Source of the DNA: Sphaerotilus montanus | Lineage (GTDB): Bacteria > Pseudomonadota > Gammaproteobacteria > Burkholderiales > Burkholderiaceae_C | Length of the DNA: 64,000 nucleotides | Assembly: GCF_013410775.1 (NCBI RefSeq) | Contig: NZ_JACCFH010000001.1 | Span: 3,844,001 to 3,908,000, forward strand | Direction: 5' to 3' | In this document: in pieces, positions 60,304 through 63,931 of the stretch | Numbering within the stretch: position 1 is the stretch's first letter | Layout: each line of letters opens with the position of its first letter | Position numbers and translations under genes: made by a program | Notes under the pieces: generated by a model | Told to the model about the DNA's origin: nothing | Databases searched by the model: none | What the model saw: the letters and a program-made list of their open reading frames with translations, nothing else

Positions 60304-60378
60304 GCTCCGTCACGCGGAGCCAGGAGTTCGAGTTCTGTTCTTGAGATGCCCCGAGGTGCGAGCCTCGGGGCTTTTTTT
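60304..60378 (+). terminator. aceA terminator
   Basis: GCCCCGAGG (60348-60356) pairs with CCTCGGGGC (60363-60371), followed by seven T. A smaller GCTCCG/CGGAGC hairpin lies just before it. Together they close the aceA transcript about 90 bp after the stop. Confidence 0.85.
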
Positions 60379-60455
60379 CGTGCTCTGGCGCCGAGGTCAT
60401 CGGTTAAACTGGCGGCTCCATCGGCTGCACAAGACACGGGAAAGGCACTCTGGTT

Positions 60456-60497
60456 ATGACACCGCGAACTACCACCTCCCCGACCTCCGAGGTCTGA
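60456..60497 (+). CDS. Threonine-rich leader peptide of thrS
   Basis: A 13-codon ORF encoding MTPRTTTSPTSEV, with five Thr codons including three in a row. It starts after GGAAAGG and ends 83 bp before the thrS ATG. The end of the ORF can form a GACCT/AGGTC hairpin (60482-60494). The position before a strong intrinsic terminator is that of a classic ribosome-mediated attenuator leader: stalling at Thr codons when charged tRNA-Thr is scarce would let transcription enter thrS. This is read from sequence only. Confidence 0.7.
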   Translation: MTPRTTTSPTSEV

Positions 60498-60534
60498 CAG
60501 GCCAGCCGCGGCTCTTCCACCGAGTCCCCCCAGG

Positions 60535-60562
60535 AAAGCGCGGCGCCCCCGCGCTTTTTTGT
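60535..60562 (+). terminator. Attenuator-type intrinsic terminator in the thrS leader
   Basis: AAAGCGCGG (60535-60543) pairs with CCGCGCTTT (60549-60557) around a five-base loop and is followed by a T run, 20 bp before thrS. GCCGCG at 60505-60510 can pair with CGCGGC at 60539-60544, an alternative helix that would prevent the terminator. Since thrS lies directly after it, regulation of read-through is more likely than plain termination. Confidence 0.78.
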
Positions 60563-60580
60563 TTTTGAAGGTTTCCCGCG

Positions 60581-62500
60581 ATGATTTCCATCCAGCTTCC
60601 CGACGGTTCCCGACGTGAATTCCCCGGCCCGGTGACCGTGGCCGACGTGGCCGCCTCCATCGGCGCCGGTCTGGCCAAGGCGGCGCTCGCCGGCCGCATC
60701 GGCACGGGTGAGACCGCCCGCGTCGTCGACACCAGCCACCGCATCGAGGCCGACGAATCGCTCGCCATCATCACGGCCAAGGACGACGCCGGCCTGGAGG
60801 TCATCCGCCACTCGACCGCCCACCTGCTGGCCTACGCCGTCAAGTCGCTGTTCCCCGAGGCACAGGTCACCATCGGCCCGGTGATCGAGAACGGCTTCTA
60901 TTACGACTTCTCGTACAAGCGCCCGTTCACCCCCGAGGATCTGGTCGCCATCGAGAAGAAGATGGGCGAGCTGGCGGCCAAGGACGAGCCGGTGGTGCGC
61001 AGCGTGCTGGCGCGTGACGAGGCGGTGGCCTACTTCAAGTCGATCGGCGAGGCCTACAAGGCCGAGATCATCGAGAGCATCCCGGCCGATCAGGACGTGT
61101 CGCTGTACGCCGAAGGGGCTTTCACCGACCTCTGCCGCGGCCCGCACGTGCCGTCGACGGGCAAGCTGAAGTTCTTCAAGCTGATGAAGGTGGCGGGTGC
61201 CTACTGGCGCGGCGACCACCGCAACGAGATGCTGCAGCGCATCTACGGCACCGCCTGGGCGACCAAGGACGACCTGCAGAAGTACCTGACGCGCCTGGAG
61301 GAGGCCGAGAAGCGCGACCACCGCCGCCTGGGGCGCGAACTGGACCTGTTCCACCTCGACGAGCACTCGCCCGGCACGGTCTTCTGGCACCCCAAGGGCT
61401 GGACGGTGTGGCAGCAGGTCGAGCAGTACATGCGCCAGGTCTACCGCGACAACGGCTACCAGGAAGTCAAGGGTCCGCAGATCCTCGACCGGAGCCTGTG
61501 GGAGAAGACGGGCCACTGGGACAAGTACCGCGACAACATGTTCGTGACCGAGTCGGAAAAGCGCGACTACGCGCTCAAGCCGATGAACTGCCCCGGCCAC
61601 ATCCTGATCTTCAAGCAGGGCATCAAGAGCTACCGCGACCTGCCGCTGCGCTACGGCGAGTTCGGCCAGTGCCACCGCAACGAGCCGACGGGTGGCCTGC
61701 ACGGCATCATGCGCGTGCGCGGCTTCACGCAGGACGACGGCCACGTCTTCTGCACCGAGGACCAGATCCTGGCCGAATGCGACGACTTCACGGCGCTGCT
61801 GCAGAAGGTCTATGCCGACTTCGGCTTCACCGAGATCCTCTACAAGGTCGCGACGCGGCCCGAGAAGCGCATCGGCTCCGATGACCTGTGGGACAAGGCC
61901 GAGGCCGCGCTGATCGACAGCCTGAAGCGCACGGGGTGCGACTTCCAGATCTCGCCCGGCGACGGCGCTTTCTACGGGCCCAAGATCGAGTACACGCTCA
62001 AGGACGCACTGGGGCGCCACTGGCAGTGCGGCACGATCCAGGTCGATTTCTCGCTGCCGGAGCGGCTGGGTGCGGAGTACGTTGCCGAGTCTGGTGACCG
62101 CCACTACCCGGTCATGCTGCACCGTGCAATCCTGGGCAGCCTGGAGCGTTTCATCGGCATCCTGATCGAGGAACACGCCGGCGCGCTGCCGGTCTGGCTG
62201 GCTCCGGTGCAGGTGTCGGTGCTCAACATCACCGATGCGCAGGCCGATTACGCCCGTGACGTCGTCAAAGCGCTGCAAAAACAAGGACTTAGGGTGTCAC
62301 TGGATTTGCGCAATGAAAAGATCACGTATAAAATCCGCGAGCATTCTTTGCAGAAGGTTCCGTACCTGCTCGTTGTCGGTGACAAGGAAAGGGCCTCAGG
62401 AACCGTCGCAGTGCGCGCCCGGGGCAATCAGGACCTCGGGGTGATGGCCCTGGAGGCCTTCTCCCAGAAGATCGCAGCCGATCTCTCCACTCTCGGGTGA
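60581..62500 (+). CDS. thrS: Threonyl-tRNA synthetase
   Basis: A 639-residue class II synthetase. The TGS domain covers about 1-60, the editing domain has [19 protein letters not shown], and the class II core has [11 protein letters not shown] and [22 protein letters not shown] with the motif 2 Arg. The anticodon-binding domain is at about 540-639. It begins the thrS-infC-rpmI-rplT-pheS translation operon and is preceded by the leader described above. Confidence 0.96.
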
Positions 62501-62586: not shown

Positions 62587-63135
62587 ATCGCTACCTTTCT
62601 TGACCGCCGTACTCCGAACGCCGAACGCAAGCATCGACTGAACCGCGAGATCACCGCCCTGGAAGTCCGTCTGAACGGACCCGAGAACGAGCCGCTGGGC
62701 ATCGTCAGCATCCAGGAAGCTCTGCGTCTTGCGGCCGAGGGTGACATCGATCTGGTGGAAATCTCCCCGACGGCCCAGCCGCCGGTGTGCCGCCTGATGG
62801 ACTACGGCAAGTTCAAGTACCAGGAACAGAAGCGCGCGGCCGAGGCCAAGGCCAAGCAGCACGTCATCGATGTCAAGGAAGTCAAGTTCCGTCCCGGTAC
62901 GGACGAAGGCGACTACAACATCAAGATGCGCAATCTGCGCCGCTTCCTGGAAGATGGCGACAAGGGCAAGGTCACCCTGCGATTCCGTGGTCGCGAGATC
63001 ACGCACCAGGACATCGGCATGCGCCTGCTGGAGCGTGTGCGCGACGAGCTGACCGACGTGTCGCTGGTCGAGCACATGCCCAAGCTCGAAGGCCGCCAGA
63101 TGATCATGGTGCTGGCCCCGAAGCGCAAGAAGTAA
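62587..63135 (+). CDS. infC: Translation initiation factor IF-3, ATC start
   Basis: A 182-residue IF-3 that prevents early 50S joining and checks start codons. The frame runs from ATC at 62587, nine bases after AAGGA, reading [35 protein letters not shown] and [17 protein letters not shown] are family blocks. The first in-frame ATG (62755) would lose the N-terminal domain. A non-AUG start is a known trait of infC and lets IF-3 limit its own synthesis. Confidence 0.9.
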
Positions 63136-63900: not shown

Positions 63901-63931
63901 AAAAAGGCCGACACTGCGTTCGGCCTTTTTT
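63901..63931 (+). terminator. Intrinsic terminator/attenuator between rplT and pheS
   Basis: AAAAAGGCCGA pairs with TCGGCCTTTTT, followed by T residues, 26 bp before pheS. No Phe-rich leader ORF precedes it, so simple partial termination is the likely role. Confidence 0.8.

Follow-up and report, generated by a model that had tools for sequence, protein, structure and literature searches.

The thrS leader and its parts

The window analysed here is a stretch of 64,000 nucleotides from Sphaerotilus montanus, in which thrS, the gene for threonyl-tRNA synthetase, follows an isocitrate lyase gene and is preceded by a short leader open reading frame (ORF; Table 1). Between the terminator of the isocitrate lyase gene and the leader ORF there are 77 bp, with a candidate promoter. 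The candidate -10 region was picked by eye, and TAGAAT, TACAAT or TATCAT can be seen, likewise by eye, close to its position in several relatives; a promoter scan returned 0 promoters, and no consensus promoter was found.

The leader ORF reads ATG ACA CCG CGA ACT ACC ACC TCC CCG ACC TCC GAG GTC TGA, and bears out the initial annotation, which had described 13 codons with five for threonine, three of them consecutive. A putative Shine-Dalgarno (SD) sequence, GGGAAAGG, stands before it, and 110 of 120 same-family leaders have AGAAAGG or GGAAAGG in this place; AGAAAGG can pair with CCTTTCT, with which the 16S gene of this genome ends, an end for which we take GGCTGGATCACCTCCTT to be the mark. The hairpin GACCT/AGGTC that had been noted at the end of the ORF is also there (60482-60486 and 60490-60494), and folding refines it to the tip of a longer protector, in which CCGCG at 60462-60466 pairs with CGCGG at 60507-60511. 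The segment GCCGCG lies at 60505-60510. Farther on, an intrinsic terminator at 60535-60560, formed by the hairpin AAAGCGCGG-CGCCC-CCGCGCTTT (60535-60557) followed by a T-run, ends 20 bp before thrS, where the initial annotation had placed a strong terminator.

Table 1. Features of the thrS leader region, in window coordinates
Feature	Positions	Strand	Basis or remark
Intrinsic terminator after the isocitrate lyase gene	60348..60378	+	separates the isocitrate lyase gene from the thrS unit
Candidate -10 region GTTAAACT	60403..60410	+	inferred by eye
Leader ribosome binding site GGGAAAGG	60438..60445	+	16S complementarity, comparison of relatives
Near-invariant block GGTTATGACACCGCGAAC around the leader start codon	60452..60469	+	leader comparison
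Leader peptide MTPRTTTSPTSEV, stop TGA	60456..60497	+	sequence, codon-frame statistics
Segment 1, CCGCG in the Pro-Arg codons, left arm of the protector	60462..60466	+	folding
Three consecutive Thr codons ACT ACC ACC, proposed stall site	60468..60476	+	sequence
Inner hairpin GACCT-CCG-AGGTC, tip of the protector	60482..60494	+	folding
Segment 2 AGCCGCGGCTCTTCC, partner of segment 1 (protector) or segment 3 (antiterminator)	60504..60518	+	folding
Segment 3, terminator left arm with its lead GGAAAGCGCGG	60533..60543	+	terminator search, folding
Segment 4, terminator right arm and T-run	60549..60566	+	sequence
thrS, threonyl-tRNA synthetase	60581..62500	+	NCBIfam TIGR00418, 730 bits; ATG at 60581

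Conservation of the leader and of its threonine codons

We searched 150 genomes of the same family and counted the upstream DNA of 144, the window's own genome included; outside these 144 are one genome without a match (G093), three with weak matches only (G008, G048 and G138), one with a partial gene (G112) and G104, which does have the leader. A named set provided upstream DNA from 79 of its 80 loci (L028 has none), and a non-family set consisted of 35 of 183 genomes from other families of the class, namely 28 best matches and seven picked by hand. The leader block was called where the 21-base GGTTATGACACCGCGAACTAC matched at 17 positions or more. By this rule it is present in 120 of the 144 same-family genomes, the window's included, where the match scores split into two groups; in 43 of the 79 named loci, three of which (L007, L032 and L033) duplicate family loci, being identical to them over 150 bases; and in 0 of the 35 non-family upstream regions examined. 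The 163 block-bearing loci thus hold 160 distinct leaders. One locus scored as lacking the block (L250, 15 of 21 positions) probably holds a divergent leader.

The initial annotation had suggested an alignment of relatives as a check, and both the threonine codons and the terminator are retained in them. All 120 family leaders have an ORF that is open to its stop, with 9 to 27 codons and two to seven threonines, and from codon 6 on, threonine accounts for 24.6% of the in-frame codons, compared with 1.1% and 2.9% in the two alternative frames (21.9% versus 1.6% and 6.5% in the named set). The synonymous codons are used in varying proportions (ACC 135, ACG 75, ACA 38 and ACT 23 in the family leaders), and this in-frame enrichment with varying third bases argues for selection of threonine codons as such. 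The short ORF rich in the relevant codons that characterises an attenuator is therefore in place, with its translation predicted and an SD match before it. Nine of the 120 family leaders have two threonines, and in the six leaders examined from families f199 and f211 the number ranges from two to four, four of these leaders having threonine at codons 2 and 5 only, so that sensitivity to threonine might be weak in these two families.

The intrinsic terminator that an attenuator has between the ORF and the gene is equally well retained: of the 120 block-bearing family regions, 116 have one within 230 bases upstream of thrS, compared with 33 of 720 dinucleotide shuffles of the family regions, and it stands after the ORF in 115 of the 120 leaders. 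Folding of the leader RNA, also proposed in the initial annotation, had a mixed outcome. The window stretch alone was uninformative, its folding energy being ordinary (z -0.27), and the evidence for the leader is for this reason comparative and not thermodynamic; the part that stood is that competing structures act, in computation, as a switch governed by the position of the ribosome.

Competing pairings and ribosome position

A protector hairpin over the control codons, as in known attenuators, is found in the minimum-energy folds of 91 of the 120 leaders, in which at least five of 10 segment 1 bases pair around or beyond the stop codon, and the expected number of paired bases in segment 1 is 5.19, compared with 2.89 when the remainder is shuffled. 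The pairing itself depends on the clade: CCGCG:CGCGG is found among leaders close to the window's own, CGCGAAC:GTTCGCG in Comamonas and Acidovorax, and CACC/CGA/CTAC with GTAG/TCG/GGTG in Cupriavidus necator. A swap test of the protector, with permutations that ignore relatedness, was not passed (1287 of 2000 were as good), and it carries little information, given how nearly invariant segment 1 is.

The proposal that GCCGCG can pair with the left arm of the terminator withstood comparison with shuffled and swapped sequences. The antiterminator duplex of segment 2 and the terminator left arm has a mean energy of -11.6 kcal/mol, whereas shuffled spacers give -9.6 kcal/mol; over 115 leaders the mean z is -1.14, and z is negative in 101 of them. 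In swap and covariation tests whose permutations ignore relatedness, the antiterminator was slightly better with its own than with swapped terminators (-13.95 versus -13.44 kcal/mol, a small effect of 0.5 kcal/mol; 2 of 2000 permutations as low), the terminator arms were better with their own partners (-16.62 versus -15.15 kcal/mol; 0 of 2000 as low), and one pair outside the antiterminator core covaried (paired in 56 of 89, with 37 expected; 0 of 5000 permutations). A further candidate, a duplex between the SD sequence and segment 2, was rejected as a general feature. In the family leaders it is weak, with a mean z of -0.34; the named set gives a mean z of -0.88, with 28 of 41 below zero, and its mean energies are spoiled by one locus (L006) whose upstream DNA is too short to give a valid energy.

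The initial annotation had further held that ribosomes stalled at the threonine codons favour the antiterminator, and the computation points the same way. We placed ribosomes on 115 leaders, leaving out four of the 120 in which no terminator was found and a fifth with a terminator that does not follow the ORF. The footprint was assumed: counting from the first base of the A-site codon, a stalled ribosome was taken to reach 12 bases, with all upstream RNA omitted, and a ribosome at the stop, counted from the first base of the stop codon, was taken to extend from 15 bases before it to 12 bases past it, the upstream RNA being retained. Under this assumption, the antiterminator is predicted to capture the terminator left arm with a probability of 0.81 when the ribosome is stalled at codon 6; for a ribosome at the stop codon the probability is 0.44, and for RNA without a ribosome it is 0.46. 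Capture is higher when stalled than at the stop in 98 of the 115 leaders and lower in five. The difference between stall and stop, 0.369, compares with 0.094 in spacer shuffles that carry the same footprint asymmetry, and lies beyond all 25 shuffled sets (maximum 0.127). For the window's own leader, the computed capture is 0.97 stalled and 0.18 at the stop. An antiterminator that excludes the terminator and is freed by a stalled ribosome, as an attenuator has it, is accordingly what the assumed footprint yields.

When the upstream RNA was omitted at the stop codon too, capture there rose to 0.68, with the stalled value higher in 60 of 115 leaders and lower in 11, which suggests that the protector matters more to the switch than coverage of segment 2 by the ribosome. 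Ribosome-free RNA of the window ending before segment 4 is predicted to favour the antiterminator (0.96), so the terminated state would need the protector to have formed first.

Distribution in the order and loss of the leader

Leaders are also found in other families of the order. The named loci that bear the block include Methylibium, Roseateles, Rubrivivax, Piscinibacter, Acidovorax, Comamonas, Rhodoferax and Variovorax, and further Noviherbaspirillum, Undibacterium, Massilia, Janthinobacterium, Cupriavidus, Paraburkholderia and Burkholderia, while Ralstonia, Bordetella and Achromobacter have divergent leaders before thrS that retain the Arg-Thr-Thr part. A scan of 200 genomes of the order with TTATGACACCGCGNAC matched 47 genomes with at most one mismatch, many of the inexact matches not being near thrS. 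There were 19 mismatch-free matches, of which 18 read ...GAAC, across seven family codes; all 18 of these TTATGACACCGCGAAC matches in the 200 genomes, the window's included, lie upstream of thrS, and the remaining match (...GCAC, L279) lies elsewhere. Within the genome of the window, the thrS leader holds the only exact copy of GGTTATGACACCGCGAAC.

On a thrS tree (FastTree, 138 sequences), on which the block was counted at 16 or more of the 21 positions and which cannot separate gain from loss, the leader is clustered (15 changes, compared with 45.9 when shuffled), and this clustering is consistent with a long-standing trait of the order that was lost repeatedly. Of the family genomes of at least 3.0 Mb, 111 of 122 have the leader, compared with 9 of 22 smaller ones, a comparison that ignores relatedness and includes some small genomes that are incomplete.

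Among the 24 of 144 family genomes without the block, 18 still have a terminator somewhere within 230 bases upstream of thrS, which indicates that the terminator can persist without the sensor. In eight of the 18, its left arm starts only 4 to 28 bases past a -10-like hexamer, and in loci such as L109, L152, L195, L203 and L246, where the leader is lost and the hairpin is kept near a -10-like box, it looks as if the sensor had been lost and the mRNA now began with the hairpin. In one Polaromonas locus (L014) the block has decayed and has no start codon, and the terminator is retained. Leader loss in small genomes with terminators left behind offers a natural series for studying the decay of such a switch.

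The block around the leader start codon

Across 162 leaders, identity at every position of GGTTATGACACCGCGAAC is 96-100%, a figure inflated by the fact that these leaders were picked by the block itself. The conservation covers the bases before the ATG as well as synonymous sites, and it exceeds that of the threonine run or the SD sequence. Pairing accounts for it in part only: the block is nearly frozen across several families, while its pairing partner is clade-dependent and the threonine run that follows comes and goes. The block might be recognised in trans, whether by threonyl-tRNA synthetase (ThrRS), by a different RNA-binding protein or by a small RNA, or it might tune initiation on the leader; we regard this as conceivable and rather unlikely.

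Proposed mechanism and alternative explanations

We propose that the thrS leader is a classical leader-peptide transcription attenuator of the trp/his/phe type, a reading to which we assign a probability of about 0.9, and that the switch most likely raises threonyl-tRNA synthetase when charged threonine tRNA is short. The leader ORF, the selected threonine codons, the terminator and the alternative pairings come directly from sequence and computation. From a promoter that we infer upstream of the leader ORF, RNA polymerase would begin transcription, and a trailing ribosome would translate MTPRTTT... With Thr-tRNA plentiful, this ribosome would clear the threonine codons and terminate translation; once it had gone, segment 1, in the Pro-Arg codons, and segment 2, just past the stop, would form the protector, and the terminator could then form, ending transcription before thrS. 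With Thr-tRNA scarce, the ribosome would stall at the threonine codons and mask segment 1, segment 2 would take the terminator left arm to form the antiterminator, and the polymerase would continue into thrS and the genes behind it, that is, read-through would rise under threonine shortage.

If the leader ORF were translated without any sensing of the amino acid and the terminator simply set a constant low level of thrS expression, one would expect terminators to be kept where the leader is absent, as they are in three quarters of the block-less relatives, and threonine richness to vary among leaders, as it does. In-frame enrichment of threonine with synonymous change and a position-dependent switch that exceeds its shuffles both speak against such fixed attenuation, which we consider improbable. 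A leader arising by chance, as a threonine-rich ORF in a GC-rich spacer beside an ordinary terminator, would agree with the ordinary folding energy of the single window, and is contradicted by conservation in 120 of 144 relatives and by the codon-frame statistics, which leave it a nearly negligible chance.

Feedback of ThrRS on its own leader could instead be the main control, as in E. coli, with the invariant block or a hairpin as operator and the threonine codons secondary. The near-identity of the 162 leaders at GGTTATGACACCGCGAAC, selected by the block as they are, goes beyond the needs of pairing and would suit an operator. However, no conserved tRNA-like anticodon arm was seen by eye around GGT, and in 59 of 116 leaders no more than 30 nt separate the start of the terminator T-run from thrS, which leaves little room behind the terminator for an operator like that of E. 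coli, roughly 160 nt in size. We hold this explanation to be very improbable, less credible than fixed attenuation and more so than chance, and retain attenuation governed by charged threonine tRNA as our reading.

Downstream genes and neighbours

The genes thrS-infC-rpmI-rplT, followed outside the window by pheS-pheT-ihfA (the last three named from a reading of their translations), all run in one direction. The names of infC and rplT, and that of the isocitrate lyase gene, come from the search that identified thrS. Judging from the sequence, it is plausible that control by the leader extends to genes downstream of thrS, as had been suggested at the outset, and threonine supply would then possibly be coupled to IF3, L35 and L20, and perhaps to PheRS. 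A terminator-like hairpin, AAAAAGGCCGA...TTCGGCCTTTTTT, lies at 63902-63931 between rplT and pheS, with no evident Phe-rich ORF, and may restrict how far transcription of the thrS unit continues into pheST. The apparent start of infC is an ATC codon (62587-62589), the GTG ORF listed at 62755 being without the N-terminal part.

Because several loci carry a tRNA before thrS, a tRNA-Thr gene in this place was considered and rejected; the tRNA is in fact tRNA-Val(GAC) in 16 of 17 thrS loci, which were hand-picked and not random (an eighteenth, L264, is not a thrS locus). It lies close before thrS in most of the 16 (for example, L036, L055, L063, L066, L119 and L121), and it occurs together with the leader block in four (L039, L040, L061 and L062).

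Comparison with known systems

Leader-peptide attenuators are known in enteric bacteria from the trp, his, thr and leu operons and from pheST. The thrS leader shares with them a short ORF rich in the sensed amino acid, the protector, antiterminator and terminator segments, and an intrinsic terminator before the gene, and pheST is likewise an aminoacyl-tRNA synthetase operon; it differs in gene and sequence, in being found in Burkholderiales and in the nearly frozen region at the leader start. Two features go beyond the known attenuator type, namely this block at the leader start codon and the loss of the leader in small genomes.

In Rfam searches of the whole window at gathering scores and of 60370-60620 at E values up to 5, no family fits the thrS leader: there was no T-box match, and the Rfam threonine operon leader was absent from the matches. 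The five matches of the lax search, to sRNA, snoRNA or lncRNA families, are below gathering score, four of them on the opposite strand, and were taken as chance. Among the literature matches listed, as judged from titles and the beginnings of abstracts, a thrS attenuator in betaproteobacteria is undescribed. Lopatovskaya and colleagues reportedly surveyed attenuation in amino-acid and aminoacyl-tRNA operons in 2010, and since that survey may already hold the prediction, we claim no priority.

The thrS gene of E. coli is controlled by translational repression, in which ThrRS binds a tRNA-like operator. Control of thrS through its own leader is common to both systems, and the Burkholderiales leader differs in having an intrinsic terminator and a leader peptide. 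Autoregulation of E. coli ThrRS is mentioned in PMC2965389, in whose main text the word thrS is absent by search counts. In Streptomyces lividans, a putative thrL has been described before thrS (PMC8079986), which is also a short leader ORF with threonine codons, and which encodes an unrelated peptide, MKRVRPFLETTPGFVPAR, with two threonines, is leaderless and has no intrinsic terminator that was clear to its authors. The T-boxes found before thrS in Firmicutes (PMC2494555 and PMC12452182) also sense the charging of Thr-tRNA and control thrS, in some clostridia as an operon thrS-infC-rpmI-rplT, but do so by binding the tRNA directly. The leader described here would thus be another solution for the control of thrS, in Burkholderiales, beside the T-boxes of Firmicutes and repression by ThrRS in E. 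coli.
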